64,000 nt of DNA. Source: Pseudomonadales bacterium (GTDB lineage: Bacteria > Pseudomonadota > Gammaproteobacteria > Pseudomonadales > Azotimanducaceae). Below the pieces are notes generated by a model. That model was not told the origin of the DNA. It worked only from the letters and a program-made list of their open reading frames with translations, and ran no database searches. Both the position numbers and the translations under genes were made by a program. This document shows, one piece after another, positions 15,576-20,740 of the stretch (positions within the stretch are counted from its first letter, which is position 1; each line of letters starts with the position of its first letter). The DNA lies in the NCBI GenBank assembly GCA_017854255.1, contig JAFMIA010000010.1:1-64000 (forward strand). Reading direction: 5' to 3'.

Positions 15576-15761
15576 TTATCGCAGCTGTTGATCCAGTAAA
15601 AACCGTTGGATCTTTCGGAAGGTTTTCAAAGAGATCTGACCTTGCTCATAAGCCACTGTAATCCGCCTCATCTGCTCCAATGACGTCGGCGTGTTGAGAT
15701 AGGCCAAGGAACTAAAGGTTGCAAGCAGCAACAGCACAGCCAAAAATTGCTTAAATTTCAT
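15576..15761 (-). CDS. Small single-helix membrane or secreted protein, last gene of the ABC operon
   Basis: This 61-residue product starts MKFKQFLAVLLLLATFSSLAY, a hydrophobic segment that could be a signal anchor or an uncleaved signal peptide. A polar, basic tail follows (RRITVAYEQGQISLKTFRKIQRFLLDQQLR). The ATG at 15761 overlaps the last 11 bases of the permease gene and is preceded at a good distance by GGAGG, which supports translation and decides the start over the in-frame ATG six codons upstream. I do not recognise the family. Its position at the end of a regulator-ATPase-permease operon suggests an accessory role, but this is inference. Confidence 0.65.
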   Translation of the reverse strand: MKFKQFLAVLLLLATFSSLAYLNTPTSLEQMRRITVAYEQGQISLKTFRKIQRFLLDQQLR

Positions 15762-16611
15762 GAAAGTGCCTCCGTCCAAAGACTGTTAAACCAAACAATA
15801 TTAGCCCAATGCCCGCTGCCAAGAAACCATCCGCCAAGTCAATCGACGCGCTGCCCATCATGGGGTTCCAAGCGCCTGCAAACGGTAGCGGCGTTGCATG
15901 GGCATAGAACCAGTCAAAGACCCGCGCTTCAGACAAAAGCGACTTTTCAACCACCAACACCAGTAACGGGATCCCCATCGCCCAGATGAGCGGCTGCCCA
16001 CGCGCAAGCCCAGACACGAGCAGCACCCATAGAAAAACCGGCGCGCCCCAGATAATCTGCAACGCAAACACCCTAAGCGCCTCGCCAACGACAGCCAGCC
16101 CAGCCATTAAAAATCCGTCAAACAGCGCTGTGCCAGGCAAAAGGAACGTCATTCCCAGACTCAACACGACGGTGACCAGCATGAACGTCAGCATCGCAGC
16201 CAGCAAATACAGACCGGGAATCACCACCAAACCCATCAGTGCTTTACTGAGCACAACCTGAAAATCCGAGACCGGTAGAGACTTCCAAAATAAGATGCTC
16301 CGGTCTTTTCGCTCTTCATACAAAGCAGATAGCAAATAGCCAATCGCAACCATCTGACTTAACAAGAAGTAACTTAATAAAAAGAAGGTCGCCGCGGCTT
16401 GACCTGGCCCGCCTTGATCAAAGGATAGGTCCTGGCTGTTGAATTCGAATTTGAAATTTTCGGTGCCAAAGTATTGCAAACCAAGACTCACCGACGCGAT
16501 CGCCAGGACAACATTCAGGATCACTAGACCCACCGGGAGCCGCCAAATTAAATTAGGGTGTTCCCAACTTTCACGCTGGAACAAGGCCATAAGCGTTGTA
16601 ACTTGATTCAT
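15751..16611 (-). CDS. ABC-2-type transporter permease
   Basis: This 286-residue inner membrane protein has six predicted helices, including LPVGLVILNVVLAIASVSLGLQYF, FFLLSYFLLSQMVAIGYLLSALY, the VIPGLYLLAAMLTFMLVTVVL region and a final LAAGIGLILFGLTVFG. The cytoplasmic motif EERKDRSILFWKSLPVSDFQVVLSKAL after the second helix is characteristic of ABC-2 export permeases paired with YtrA-type regulators. With the ATPase 60 bases upstream it should form a homodimeric exporter; the cargo is unknown. Its last 11 bases overlap the small membrane-protein gene. Confidence 0.88.
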   Translation of the reverse strand: MNQVTTLMALFQRESWEHPNLIWRLPVGLVILNVVLAIASVSLGLQYFGTENFKFEFNSQDLSFDQGGPGQAAATFFLLSYFLLSQMVAIGYLLSALYEERKDRSILFWKSLPVSDFQVVLSKALMGLVVIPGLYLLAAMLTFMLVTVVLSLGMTFLLPGTALFDGFLMAGLAVVGEALRVFALQIIWGAPVFLWVLLVSGLARGQPLIWAMGIPLLVLVVEKSLLSEARVFDWFYAHATPLPFAGAWNPMMGSASIDLADGFLAAGIGLILFGLTVFGRRHFHEI

Positions 16612-16671
16612 TTTAAGTCCTCTTTAAAAGCGGATTGGCGCGAATTCGCGTGCAACCAGTTGATCCTTGTT

Positions 16672-17544
16672 TTAAATCGACGCGGTTGATTTAGTTTCAC
16701 GCGTCATCATGGCGACAAAAAGCTCAGCGATGCCCACGCGCCGCGTCGTGCCGAGTTCCGCAAGACTTTCAGCGCTCACCCCATCAAAAATCATGCAGGC
16801 TCCCTCGATCTGAGCTTGCTCGGACAAAGGCTTCAATCCTCGGGCGGCGCTCATCTGCGACTTTACGACATCAACCGCTCGATACCGGCTATAGACATCA
16901 TCCAACGCGGCATCGAGACGAATCTTGCCCTGGTCGATAAAAATGAGGTGGGTTAGCAACGACTCAATTTCCTCAACCTGATGGGTACTGATGAGTAGGG
17001 TCCGGTCTTCTGATAAAAATTCATTCAATATTTGTTGATAAAATTGACTGCGATATACGATATCCAAACCCAGGGTCGGCTCATCCAGAATAAGCAACTG
17101 GACATCCATCGCTAATACCAGCGCGAGATGCAGTTGCGTCACCATACCCTTGGAGAGCGCTTTCACGCGCTGCTTTAGCGGTATATCGGTCTTAGCGAGG
17201 ATGGCGTGGGCTTTTTCGAGGTCAAATTGCGGGTGAATGGCCTGGGTAAATTTCAACGCATCATTGACTTTTAGCCAGCGGGGCAAGATTCCCACATCTG
17301 AAATGTAGCCAACCGAGGTCATCATTTGATGCGGCGCAGAGCGCGGTGACTTACCCAGCACCTCGACCGTACCCTCAAAGGCCGACAAGCCCAAGATCGC
17401 TTTCAGCGCGGTTGTTTTACCCGCGCCATTGGGCCCGATCAGCCCGACCACAGCGCCTTTCGGCACTTCAAACGAGACGCGATCTAAGGCTTGGTGATCA
17501 CCAAATCGTTTGCTCAAACTCTGGACTGAAATAGCGTTGCTCAC
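16672..17544 (-). CDS. ABC transporter ATP-binding protein
   Basis: This 290-residue ATPase has Walker A GPNGAGKTTA, a signature-like ALSKGMVTQLHLALVLAMD, Walker B LLILDEPTLGLD and the switch His in LISTHQVEEIE. The signature loop (SKGM rather than SGGQ) is of the variant seen in bacitracin/YtrB-type exporters. The start is taken as the GTG at 17544, which gives MSNAISVQSLSKRFG, has AGGAG upstream and overlaps the GntR stop as GTGA (17541-17544). The frame itself is open to 17613 through the regulator gene. It pairs with the ABC-2 permease downstream and is probably controlled by the GntR protein just upstream. Confidence 0.9.
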   Translation of the reverse strand: MSNAISVQSLSKRFGDHQALDRVSFEVPKGAVVGLIGPNGAGKTTALKAILGLSAFEGTVEVLGKSPRSAPHQMMTSVGYISDVGILPRWLKVNDALKFTQAIHPQFDLEKAHAILAKTDIPLKQRVKALSKGMVTQLHLALVLAMDVQLLILDEPTLGLDIVYRSQFYQQILNEFLSEDRTLLISTHQVEEIESLLTHLIFIDQGKIRLDAALDDVYSRYRAVDVVKSQMSAARGLKPLSEQAQIEGACMIFDGVSAESLAELGTTRRVGIAELFVAMMTRETKSTASI

Positions 17545-17894
17545 GATGGCTCCTTTAATAAATCTGTTAACGATAACCCCAGCAACGTGATCCGTTGATG
17601 GATACTCGGCCACTCCTCCGACAGAAATCGAGCACGCAACTGAATCTTGAGTTGCTCGGCGGCACCCTCGGCGACAAACATACCCAGCCCCCGGCGCTTC
17701 AGCGCGATGCCATCCTCAACCAGCATCGCAATGGCCTTTGATACCGTGATGGGGTTCACATGTTGCGCGACCGCTAACTGGCGAACTGACGGCAAGGCAT
17801 CCCCCTCTTGGATCACGCCCTCTAAAATTAACTGGGCGAGGTATTGGTGAATCTGCAGGTATATCGGATCTTTCTCATTCCAAACAATCTTCAT
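17541..17894 (-). CDS. GntR-family regulator, YtrA subfamily
   Basis: This short (117-residue) GntR regulator has only the winged helix-turn-helix (residues ~10-75: PIYLQIHQYLAQLILEGVIQEGDALPSVRQLAVAQHVNPITVSKAIAMLVEDG) and a short helical tail for dimerisation. This is the YtrA architecture, which normally sits first in, and represses, an ABC exporter operon. The genes downstream are exactly an ATPase and an ABC-2 permease. A palindrome overlaps the -10 box of the operon's likely promoter (17997-18014), which fits autorepression. The inducing signal is unknown; relatives in other bacteria respond to cell-wall-active compounds. Confidence 0.9.
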   Translation of the reverse strand: MKIVWNEKDPIYLQIHQYLAQLILEGVIQEGDALPSVRQLAVAQHVNPITVSKAIAMLVEDGIALKRRGLGMFVAEGAAEQLKIQLRARFLSEEWPSIHQRITLLGLSLTDLLKEPS

Positions 17895-17996
17895 CCGTGA
17901 CGCGCCATCGGCGGCATCGGGATCATCCGACCTGATGTCTCAAAATACGGTTGAGGGTTATAGAACATACAGCTGACCGGCGTTAAGAGGTTTAGT

Positions 17997-18014
17997 GTTA
18001 TACCTAAGTATAAC
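17997..18014. promoter_or_regulatory. Palindromic operator candidate GTTATAC-N4-GTATAAC
   Basis: A perfect inverted repeat of seven bases per arm with a four-base centre lies about 100 bases upstream of the GntR gene. It covers the -10 box of the promoter described at 18007-18034. The size and symmetry fit a dimeric winged-helix repressor such as the adjacent YtrA-type regulator. Binding itself is inferred. Confidence 0.6.
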
Positions 18015-18034
18015 GCTTGAATAAACCCCGTCAA
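18007..18034 (-). promoter_or_regulatory. Sigma-70-type promoter of the GntR-ABC operon
   Basis: On the minus strand, TTGACG (18034-18029) and TATACT (18012-18007) are separated by 16 bases, a near-consensus -35/-10 pair. Transcription would start near position 18000, leaving a leader of about 105 bases before the GntR ATG at 17894. The -10 box sits inside the palindrome at 17997-18014, so a bound repressor would block RNA polymerase. Confidence 0.65.
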
Positions 18035-18094: not shown

Positions 18095-19606
18095 TTATCG
18101 TCGATAATCAAGGGGCGGCGCGCGGTCGCCGAGGAGCGCTTCGTAAACAAAATCAGGACCTCGGCGCTGCTCGAACTCGACGGCTGCCGCGTCGAGATGA
18201 CTGGGCGCCAAAAACAAAGCCTGAGCGGTTAGGGCCAGGGTTTTTGCAGCAACCATCATCCCCTGAATACCGATACTCGTTCCACCGGCGGCAATCGCCT
18301 GCCAACTGTGGGCGGCAGTCCCGGGCACCCAGGTGGCCGTACTAAGGCCAACCGTCGGCACGGTCCAACTGACATCGCCAACATCGGTTGAGCCCTTACT
18401 CTCGGTAAAGCCAAAGGGCAGGACCTTTTCTTCAAGTCCTAAGACACTCGGCTGATTGATAAAACTTTGGGACAAGACCTCAGCAAAAGCCCGCTCTGAG
18501 GCCGTCATCGTATAGCCACCGACCGTGCTCAAGCTTTGATGCATCACGCGCGCCAAGGTTTCATTTGGCAAAATTGAATGATTGCCATGCATGGTTTCGA
18601 TCTTAACCTCGGTTCCCGTTCCCAGCGCCGCTGCGTGGGCGGTGTTCATCACCCGATCCCAAATATTGGCGAGCTCACTGGCTTGGGGATGACGCACGTA
18701 GTAGTAGACTTCCGCAAAATCCGGCACCACGTTGGGCGCCTTACCGCCACTGGTGATCACATAGTGAATCCTTGTGCTATCGGGCACATGCTCTCTCATG
18801 AGATTGACCATGTAGTTCATGGCCTCGACGCCATCCAATGCTGACCGTCCCCGTTCGGGTGCTGCCGCGGCATGTGCGGATCGGCCATAGAACCGAACTC
18901 GGGCGGATTTATTCGCAAGTGTCGTGCCGGGATTCGCAGCGTTTCGATCGGCCCCATGCCAATGCAGTACCGTATCAACATCGTCAAACAGCCCAGCACG
19001 TACCAAATACACTTTCCCCGAACCCCCTTCTTCGGCGGGGGTACCATAAAGTCGAATGGTGCCGGCTTGGCCCGTTTCAGCGAGCCATCGTTTTACCGCG
19101 ATTGCAGCAGCCGTGGAGCCAGCGCCAAAGAGATGGTGGCCGCAGGCATGGCCCGCAGTCTTATCCGCAAGCACCGATCGAGTCGGCACCGCCGCCTGGC
19201 TAATTCCAGGCAACGCATCAAACTCGGCCAAAATGCCAATCACCGGCTCGCCTTGACCAAAACTTGCAACAAACGCGGTTGGGATCTCTGCGACGCCGGC
19301 GCTCACTTCGAAGCCTTCATCCGCAAGGGTATCTTGCAACAGCTGACTACTCCGGGTCTCTTGATAGCCAAGCTCGGCATAGTCCCAGATTTTTAACGCA
19401 ATGCCTGCGTAGTGCTCGCGCTCGGTTTCAAGCAAAGCCGTCAATTGAGCGCCGGCATCGGCCTGAACCTGCGACGCCACAGCGGCCCAAACAAGCCCCA
19501 TGATGAGCCCTGTGCAACGTATAGCGTGTTTTACGTCTGCTTTCGCATTCCATCCGGCACGCGTCGCCCCTTGCAGGCGCCCCTGACCCATTTTTTTCTT
19601 CGCCAT
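18095..19606 (-). CDS. Exported M20-family amidohydrolase/peptidase (AbgB-like)
   Basis: The product is a metallo-amidohydrolase of the M20D group, related to the p-aminobenzoyl-glutamate hydrolase subunit AbgB and to aminoacylases. The metal-site motifs are EFDALPGISQ, GHACGHHLFGAG, GTPAEEGGSGK and LHWHGADRNAA, with a C-terminal GTAAHSWQ. An N-terminal hydrophobic stretch (IMGLVWAAVASQVQADA) after a basic leader looks like a signal peptide, so the enzyme is probably periplasmic, unlike cytosolic AbgB. The length of 503 residues includes a long leader of about 50 residues, and a later start is possible. The peptide or acyl-amino-acid substrate is unknown. It is not obviously part of a neighbouring operon. 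Confidence 0.85.
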   Translation of the reverse strand: MAKKKMGQGRLQGATRAGWNAKADVKHAIRCTGLIMGLVWAAVASQVQADAGAQLTALLETEREHYAGIALKIWDYAELGYQETRSSQLLQDTLADEGFEVSAGVAEIPTAFVASFGQGEPVIGILAEFDALPGISQAAVPTRSVLADKTAGHACGHHLFGAGSTAAAIAVKRWLAETGQAGTIRLYGTPAEEGGSGKVYLVRAGLFDDVDTVLHWHGADRNAANPGTTLANKSARVRFYGRSAHAAAAPERGRSALDGVEAMNYMVNLMREHVPDSTRIHYVITSGGKAPNVVPDFAEVYYYVRHPQASELANIWDRVMNTAHAAALGTGTEVKIETMHGNHSILPNETLARVMHQSLSTVGGYTMTASERAFAEVLSQSFINQPSVLGLEEKVLPFGFTESKGSTDVGDVSWTVPTVGLSTATWVPGTAAHSWQAIAAGGTSIGIQGMMVAAKTLALTAQALFLAPSHLDAAAVEFEQRRGPDFVYEALLGDRAPPLDYRR

Positions 19607-19660: not shown

Positions 19661-20740
19661 CTAGTTTGCCGCGGCGGCCGCTTCAATCGCTTGACGGATC
19701 AAACCTAAGCTGTCTGGTAGACTGACCGAGCCAAGGCGCCGGGCCATATCAAACCGCACCATCCAAACAGAATCAACCGCCCGCGCCAGCGCCCCCGGAC
19801 CAAGATCTCGCTCCTGACAAACCTGGGCATACCCTTTTTGCTCAAACAACGCCGCATTCTGCAGTTGATCCCCGCGGCTTGCAGCACTGGGCAGCGGAAT
19901 AAGCAGTTGGGGTTTTTTAAACCACAAAAACTCGAACAAAGCATTTGCCCCTGCCCGAGAGATCACAACATCTGAGGCCGCAACCACATCACCATAGGGT
20001 TCATCCAAATATTCAAACTGCTGGTAGTGCGGGGTTTCCACAAACTCCGGATCAATACCGCCGCCGCCCACCACATGAACGACATGAAAGCGTTCAGTGA
20101 GCTGCGCAAGGTCGGCGCGCACCAAGCGATTGATGGCTTGCGCGCCTAAACTGCCACCCACCACCAATAAAATCGGCTGGGTCTCACCCACTGCCTTGAA
20201 ACCGTTTAGCCACTGTCGACCCCGCTCGCCGTCGGATTGAACCAAACCTGCTCTGAGCGGCGTGCCCGTTACCCGAGTGGCTCGCTGGGCGAAATGAGCC
20301 GCTGTTTCTTCAAAATTAAGGCATATCCTTCGACAAAATGGGGCACTCAAGCGGTTTGCCAAACCGGGCGTCAAATCTGACTCGTGGATCACAACGGGGA
20401 TCCGGAGGCTCCACGCTGCAATGACCACGGGCACCGCGACAAATCCACCTTTGGAAAACAACACATCGGGTCGGCGCCACAGTAGGATCCAGAGTGCCTG
20501 AAAGAATCCAAAAAAAATCTTCACAGGATCAATGAAGTTCTGCCAATCGAAGTACCGCCGAAGCTTGCCGGAGGCGATGCCGTAAAAATCCAGATTGAGC
20601 CCAGACACCAACGTGGCCTCAATGCCCACTTTGGAGCCAATATAAAAACACTCAACGCCATCACGCTGGAACGACTCAATAAGCGCAAGGTTGGGTGTAA
20701 CGTGCCCGGCTGTCCCCCCACCGGTGAAGACAACTTTCAT
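19661..20740 (-). CDS. murG: MurG-family glycosyltransferase of the Firmicutes type
   Basis: The 359-residue GT-B protein resembles MurG, the enzyme that adds GlcNAc to lipid I to make lipid II at the inner face of the membrane. The N-terminal motif FTGGGTAGHVTPN (5-17), the acceptor-side SSGKLRRY-like segment (SGKLRRYFDW), FSKGGFVAVPVVIAA (95-109), IHESDLTPGLANRL (118-131) and the donor-site motifs VVGGSLGAQAINR and SRAGANALFEFLW are present. The wording matches Staphylococcus-type MurG (SKGGFVSVPVVIAA, HESDLTPGLAN), not the HEQN..GLTN form of gammaproteobacteria. It lies outside any dcw cluster, two bases after hda. It could be the only MurG or a second, specialised copy. Confidence 0.85.
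   Translation of the reverse strand: MKVVFTGGGTAGHVTPNLALIESFQRDGVECFYIGSKVGIEATLVSGLNLDFYGIASGKLRRYFDWQNFIDPVKIFFGFFQALWILLWRRPDVLFSKGGFVAVPVVIAAWSLRIPVVIHESDLTPGLANRLSAPFCRRICLNFEETAAHFAQRATRVTGTPLRAGLVQSDGERGRQWLNGFKAVGETQPILLVVGGSLGAQAINRLVRADLAQLTERFHVVHVVGGGGIDPEFVETPHYQQFEYLDEPYGDVVAASDVVISRAGANALFEFLWFKKPQLLIPLPSAASRGDQLQNAALFEQKGYAQVCQERDLGPGALARAVDSVWMVRFDMARRLGSVSLPDSLGLIRQAIEAAAAAN

Follow-up and report, generated by a model that had tools for sequence, protein, structure and literature searches.

A conserved probable operator across the promoter of a YtrA-type gntR-ABC exporter operon in an Azotimanducaceae bacterium, and a predicted second target at a DUF2884 gene

The window analyzed here is a 64,000-nucleotide stretch of contig JAFMIA010000010.1 (assembly GCA_017854255.1) from a Pseudomonadales bacterium of the family Azotimanducaceae. 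On the minus strand, positions 15576-18034 of the window carry a promoter with a palindrome and, after these, gntR, an ABC ATPase gene, a permease gene and a 61-aa ORF, four genes in all (Table 1). The GTG start codon of the ATPase gene overlaps the gntR stop codon (GTGA), and the place of the permease gene after the ATPase gene is conserved among the neighborhood loci. Both the ABC and the permease genes lie downstream of gntR in 32 of the 40 neighborhood loci, the others being partly masked by simple ORF picking. The ORFs, their Pfam matches and the conserved gene order thus bear out the proposal of the first-pass annotation that a short GntR gene heads an ABC exporter operon. No solved structure is similar to the permease by sequence at E 0.1.

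The 61-aa membrane protein gene is a newly recognized member of the gntR operon, absent from the first-pass annotation. Its relatives were found by tblastn in five of the 40 neighborhood loci (49-93% identity), and similar ORFs were recognized by eye in two more. The protein, scanned without its last four residues, matched no credible Pfam or NCBIfam family; by eye only, its tail has a SHOCT-like look. A leader peptide upstream of gntR is also possible. The candidate reading frame is open in all five of the closest relatives, with an in-frame 9-nt deletion in one, and many residues differ between the relatives, so the evidence for it is weak. No clear Shine-Dalgarno sequence was seen before gntR. 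Just upstream of the operon are a MurG-like glycosyltransferase ORF (19661-20740, minus strand) and an amidohydrolase-like ORF (18095-19606), both named from the look of their sequences, and homologues of the two (clusters c5 and c6) adjoin the operon in many loci of the family.

Table 1. Positions of the genes and control elements of the gntR operon in the window, and of the second operator copy elsewhere in the same genome
Feature	Position	Strand	Basis and remarks
-35 hexamer TTGACG	18029..18034	-	promoter scan; TTG at the same distance from the operator in 28/49 aligned orthologues
-10 hexamer TATACT	18007..18012	-	inner end of the operator left arm plus first two spacer bases; TATA[GC]T in 35/49
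Operator, 26 bp	17993..18018	-	AAGCGTTATA-CTTAGG-TATAACACTA; consensus TRGTGTTATA-N6-TATAACACYA; phylogenetic footprint and genome-wide specificity
Perfect palindrome GTTATAC-N4-GTATAAC	17997..18014	.	inner part of the 26-bp operator
Possible leader ORF, 25 codons	17891..17968	-	ends in ATGA over the gntR start, within the untranslated leader
gntR, YtrA-subfamily regulator, 117 aa	17541..17894	-	PF00392 E 9.5e-15, 54.5 bits (cut-off 27); structure model
ABC transporter ATPase	16672..17544	-	PF00005 (ABC_tran) E 2.8e-22, 80.2 bits; GTG start; AAAGGAG upstream
Permease, ABC-2-like, 286 aa	15751..16611	-	PF13346 (ABC2_membrane_5) 22.6 bits, under the cut-off of 25; eight hydrophobic segments
Fourth gene, 61 aa	15576..15761	-	one N-terminal hydrophobic segment; start overlaps permease end by 11 nt
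Second operator, exact 16/16	L097:1499-1524, contig C86		own genome; 23 nt before the first DUF2884 start codon

The first-pass annotation had described a TTGACG-16-TATACT promoter on the minus strand, a perfect GTTATAC-N4-GTATAAC palindrome and an operator inside the promoter. Promoter and palindrome are both present, and the promoter, with its 16-nt spacer between the -35 and -10 hexamers, is the best match (10/12) among six promoter-like sites in 7 kb, for which shuffled sequences average 4.1 sites. The placement of the operator inside the promoter is likewise supported, but its boundaries had to be redrawn, the real conserved unit being the longer one of 26 bp. The innermost C/G pair of GTTATAC-N4-GTATAAC is part of the -10 box and not of the conserved arms. 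Eight of ten positions of the window operator are symmetric, and its left arm contains one mismatch, GCG instead of GTG.

The palindrome is not significant by itself. It exists as a single exact copy in the 3.36-Mb assembly with four other places at two mismatches, a level at which the reversed control gave more matches (six) than the pattern did (five). The window contains eight perfect N4 palindromes with 7-bp arms, where 20 Markov copies have 5.3 on average. When only the 200-bp upstream region was modeled, 62 of its 500 Markov copies contained a palindrome with 7-bp arms and a spacer of 0-10. The significance of the palindrome lies in its being conserved, and not in its being rare in the window.

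Conservation upstream of orthologues, the lack of which the first-pass annotation had named as refuting its proposal, was found in each of the 30 family loci scored. The motif TRGTGTTATA-N6-TATAACACYA is present upstream of gntR in 30/30 loci, where the regulators are 50-100% identical to that of the window, with scores of 15-20 of 20, whereas 50 mononucleotide shuffles of each region reach at best 12-15. As these 30 loci had themselves supplied the consensus, it was then tested genome-wide. In 200 genomes of the family, including that of the window, GTGTTATA-N6-TATAACAC occurs with up to one mismatch at 46 places in 42 genomes, compared with four places for the reversed pattern, and 41 of the 46 precede a gntR orthologue by 20-179 bp; the motif is thus gntR-specific genome-wide. 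Such a site is carried by 41 of the 68 gntR orthologues (E <= about 1e-26) and is absent from 27. Among the 40 neighborhood loci, 20 of whose genomes belonged already to the first set, 32 have an operator of 16/20 or better, and the eight without one comprise six distant paralogues (E 1e-12 to 1e-18) and two true orthologues (L166 and L171). Sites with two mismatches were rejected as meaningful; in the genus they number 17 against 15 for the reversed control, a near-equality that makes this level uninformative, and in the own genome the two- and three-mismatch levels are also at control.

The register of operator and promoter was examined in 50 upstream regions, reduced to 49 by setting aside L158, where the operator extends into the start of gntR; duplicates (L031-L034), L039, which has no site, and L042-L096, which are outside the clade, were left out of the alignment. 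The distance from the start of a TTG to the operator is exactly 16 nt in 28 of the 49, the next commonest distances occurring seven times each. The -10 sequence within the operator is TATAGT in 28 and TATACT, as in the window, in seven. The constant distance of TTG and the constant place of TATA[GC]T indicate that operator and promoter have been kept in one register. From this layout we infer that the operator overlies both the -10 box and the presumed start of transcription, at about position 18000.

The AlphaFold model of the GntR protein (45 sequences) has a mean pLDDT of 90 and consists of a winged helix followed by helices 79-105 and 109-113. In this model the C-terminal domain appears reduced to two helices, in agreement with the domain of about 50 residues by which the YtrA subfamily is recognized, and the long palindrome with GT/AC far from its center, the other mark of the subfamily, is found in the clade as TRGT....TA-N6-TA....ACYA. 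The best solved folds found by Foldseek are short GntR proteins, led by Coxiella 3tqn (TM 0.79 by query), which also matches the GntR protein by sequence at E 4.6e-26; further matches are 2ek5/2du9 of C. glutamicum, 3neu/4r1h of Listeria and the archaeal YtrA 6sbs. The earlier assignment to the YtrA type is therefore borne out by the Pfam GntR match, the two modeled C-terminal helices and the nearest solved folds. The regulator is 90-98% identical to the closest named records, which come from Gammaproteobacteria or Pseudomonadales metagenome assemblies. Identification of the regulator as PmtR was rejected, as the NCBIfam score is 48.2 bits against a cut-off of 200 (the model matches residues 2-84), and so was that of the ATPase as PmtA (146.6 against 350 bits).

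The half-sites of more distant relatives were surveyed by taking the best N6 dyad upstream of each regulator, with no consensus imposed, and grouping the results by eye; a good number of the rows are GC-rich chance dyads, one row is masked by N, and six are under 7/10. As read in this way, regulators with PSVR..NPxTV pair with half-sites GTGTKATA, GTGTGTTA or GTGTACTA, those with YSQY..NPATA pair with GTRCATTA, and those with PST[NT]E..NPATA pair with GTTCATTA or GTTAGTTA. The half-site GTGTGTTA is found in Maritalea, GTGTACTA in some members of the family, GTRCATTA in Bacilli, and GTTCATTA or GTTAGTTA in many actinobacterial and clostridial loci. By eye, the N6 spacing is constant while the middle of the half-site and the HTH residues change between lineages. 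In G809, a second, distant GntR gene (locus L253) has a different upstream palindrome, TAGTGCATTA-N6-TAATGCACAC (by eye, shifted inside the printed stretch), and this palindrome of its own suggests two specificities in one cell.

Searching the own genome at up to three mismatches gave six places, namely one exact match on contig C86, the window operator with one mismatch, and four with three mismatches; the reversed control gave seven places, none of them at one mismatch or fewer. The exact copy precedes a gene for a DUF2884 protein of 251 aa (92.3 bits, cut-off 30.6) with a signal-like N-terminus. A -10-like TATACT is located inside this palindrome as well, and no well-spaced -35 sequence was seen there by eye. 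Genes for an ABM-monooxygenase and a Rieske oxygenase are neighbors of this gene, and the contig ends soon after. An exact operator is also present before a DUF2884 gene in G071, whose protein is 99% identical to that of the own genome, and before a dissimilar DUF2884 gene (25% identity) in G127. In total, three of the 13 DUF2884 loci found in the family have the operator. The gene is broken by stops in G104 and only a fragment remains in G135 (L123 and L124, both close relatives), neither with the operator, and another DUF2884 gene of the own genome, on contig C150, also lacks it. The second, unlinked site is new here, and the shared operator predicts a regulon of more than one locus. As for the published Toastrack module, GntR, ATPase and permease are present in one operon in the window, from which the DUF2884 gene is absent and in which no Toastrack gene was found. 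One DUF2807 (Toastrack) protein was found in the own genome (L233:1441-2178, contig C48), and the 3.6-kb locus around it contains no operator of 15/20 or better.

Beyond the family, sites with up to one mismatch occur at the order level in 20 of 293 genomes, at 25 places compared with nine for the control; two of these places remaining after the others were assigned are those of the own genome. Among 19 such loci (L102-L120), 13 have a GntR relative, 11 of these also with DUF2807 beside the site (Pfam-confirmed for the six scanned), and six have neither. The operons with the operator in front of them in sister families are thus of the type DUF2807 (Toastrack)-GntR-ABC-permease. Four further places lie before RND pump genes in G329, G238 and G445 (with 441 nt between in G445) and before a DUF2884 gene in G329, a genome of another family, and at L223 the operon runs on into a membrane-fusion gene and an RND gene. 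At the class level, exact matches were detected in six of 369 genomes, at eight places, with none for the control. The seven outside the own genome precede GntR-ABC-permease operons (two), operons in which an ABC ATPase is followed by large proteins (two), and one each of a membrane-fusion plus MacB-type operon, an outer-membrane efflux gene and a secreted protein of no family.

A close GntR orthologue (E 6e-38 or better) is encoded in all five of the non-own genomes with exact class-level sites. In four of them, whose gntR locus was fetched besides L248, gntR is preceded by a site of 17-19/20 at a distance of 52 to about 1000 nt. The seven genomes in which the sites are context-free have no orthologue at E 1e-10, two of these assemblies being only 87% complete. 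Presence of the regulator thus matches the reality of the site, because the genomes with sites at export genes have the orthologue (5/5) and those with context-free sites do not (0/7). The order-level sites L102, L104, L105, L115, L116 and L120, with no GntR or Toastrack nearby and no orthologue in the genome, are probably chance occurrences, as are the G067 site, in a genome without an orthologue at E 1e-10, and the site at G127:C42, which falls within coding sequence.

The sequence elements at the locus and their conservation, the gntR specificity of the motif and the second site can be brought together in one reading, to which as a whole we assign a probability of about 0.83: a YtrA-subfamily dimer acts on the palindrome, with negative autoregulation of the operon and probable control of DUF2884 in trans. 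The GntR protein would bind as a dimer to the two-turn palindrome TRGTGTTATA-N6-TATAACACYA, where, over the -10 box and presumed start, it would block RNA polymerase and so repress its own operon, a mode of control with which the layout is consistent. A signal would release the repressor, whereupon gntR, the ABC ATPase, the permease and the 61-aa membrane protein would be made. The same repressor probably acts in trans on the gene for the secreted DUF2884 protein of contig C86. Points against this reading are the 27 of 68 orthologues and the two true orthologues among the neighborhood loci that lack a site, the mismatch in the left arm of the window operator, the DUF2884 site having no well-spaced -35 sequence by eye, and the existence of short GntR regulators that activate.

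That the palindrome is a site for another factor, or a mere AT-rich feature of the promoter linked to GntR by proximity, would fit the finding that the bare palindrome is no rarer than chance in the window, but gntR accounts for 41 of the 46 near-perfect sites in the 200 genomes, the half-sites change along with the HTH, and the regulator is present in 5/5 against 0/7 genomes, all of which make this reading highly improbable. It is also improbable, if somewhat less so, that the regulator binds the palindrome and mainly activates, or both activates and represses, the operon and other genes. The Xanthomonas HpaR1/YtrA protein is reported to activate several genes, though the abstract also states autorepression (PMC4730234, PMC7831014), and a GntR heading an ABC operon in A. 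baumannii is reported as an activator, its subfamily unnamed there (PMC13104710). However, the -10 box and presumed start are covered here by an operator of near-constant register, where a bound dimer would exclude RNA polymerase, and the -35/-10 pair forms a fair consensus promoter, which should need no activator.

A coincidental DUF2884 site, with the regulon consisting of a single operon as, by the published description of the subfamily, most YtrA regulons do (PMC4494728), is a rather unlikely reading but carries more weight than those two. The operator is at only three of 13 family DUF2884 loci, and chance placement in one lineage is possible, G000 and G071 being near-identical there (99%). 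Against coincidence are the exact 16/16 match, when the reversed control has no match at one mismatch or fewer in the own genome, the exact site at the dissimilar DUF2884 gene (25% identity) in G127, together with the one in G329 of another family, and the presence of DUF2884 in published operons with GntR-ABC (PMC11237479). The most probable of the alternatives concerns the signal, which on this account would be no small ligand, the short C-terminal helices having no pocket, and release would take place via a peptide, a membrane component (the 61-aa protein or the transporter) or competition at the DNA. We consider this unlikely on balance, with a substantial minority chance. The C-terminal part is modeled as the two helices 79-105 and 109-113, a YtrA member is described for which no biologically relevant ligand was found (PMC6746942), PSM peptides release PmtR, with direct disruption at the DNA offered as one model (PMC5080381), and the 61-aa membrane protein belongs to the operon. 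Its relatives, however, were detected by tblastn in only 5/40 loci, so the 61-aa protein cannot be the general signal.

Repression by the YtrA-type dimer remains the preferred reading for the window operon, and its wider extension is put forward more tentatively, at a little under even odds. The palindrome may be the signature of a gammaproteobacterial envelope-export regulon, in which one YtrA-type repressor would coordinate its ABC exporter and a DUF2884 partner with Toastrack proteins and, depending on the lineage, with RND pumps, MacB-type exporters or an outer-membrane efflux protein, and in which the Toastrack-GntR-ABC-DUF2884 neighborhood could scatter yet stay coupled through the operator. 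The locus provides an exact candidate DNA target, with orthologues and natural half-site variants, for a class of regulators with few known natural signals. Together with the second site, those of other families single out a few genes that would have to respond together (DUF2884, Toastrack, RND, MacB-type and outer-membrane efflux), so that what the system senses and the role of DUF2884 become open to simple testing. With the layout itself confirmed and the type of control known, it is the predicted regulon of several loci that deserves to be followed, and the shared palindrome at a second envelope gene makes it testable.

An autorepressing GntR protein at the head of an ABC operon is a known type of control, as in PmtR and YtrA. 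In the pmtABCD system of Staphylococcus aureus, whose regulator PmtR is of the YtrA subfamily, a short GntR gene likewise heads an ABC exporter operon with one promoter, and the PmtR footprint is reported as 36 bp over the transcription start (PMC5080381). In contrast, that operon has two ATPases and two permeases where the window has one each, no PSM peptides are known here, and the window proteins are far under the PmtR and PmtA cut-offs, as stated above. The motif of X. citri YtrA, cited in a later paper as GGTG-N16-CACC (PMC6746942), resembles ours in geometry, RGTG-TTATA-N6-TATAA-CACY keeping the same 16-nt distance; X. citri YtrA and X. campestris HpaR1 differ in their reported role, which is global and includes activation, and the HpaR1 site at gumB has a different geometry, with arms 1 bp apart (PMC4730234). 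The YtrA of Sulfolobus acidocaldarius (6SBS) shares the fold (TM-score 0.59-0.64 by query) and is described as an autorepressor with a site covering the transcription start and a two-target regulon of membrane proteins (PMC6746942), whereas its 14-bp core motif spans one DNA turn, compared with the two-turn N6 palindrome here.

Comparison with the YtrA regulons of Suvorova et al. 2015 (PMC4494728; 25 gammaproteobacterial factors) is by the subfamily description, which also gives a long palindrome with GT/AC far from the center, a single site, an ABC operon and autoregulation, as well as HTH specificity residues that vary with the half-site, in agreement with our survey; the regulons there are mostly single operons, whereas a second locus is predicted here. 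Searches of open-access papers found none joining GIN domain, GntR and ABC transporter with this combination of terms and, judged by title, apparently none among those listed on YtrA with RND/MacB that concerns the present system, and the listed matches to the motif letters are apparently primer and genome strings. The closest counterpart comes from a study of phage-shock-type envelope stress, which describes operons of Toastrack (DUF2154/DUF4097/DUF2807), ABC ATPase, permease, GNTR-HTH and DUF2884 lipoprotein, and suggests DUF2884 as the partner of the transporter (PMC11237479). The gene types are the same, and we found the operator at Toastrack operons of sister families; the window operon differs in having no Toastrack gene and its DUF2884 gene on another contig, and the passages seen name no operator. 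Our link to DUF2884 was reached through the operator, independently of that study, and the Toastrack-type module is apparently split in the window genome and tied together by the shared operator.
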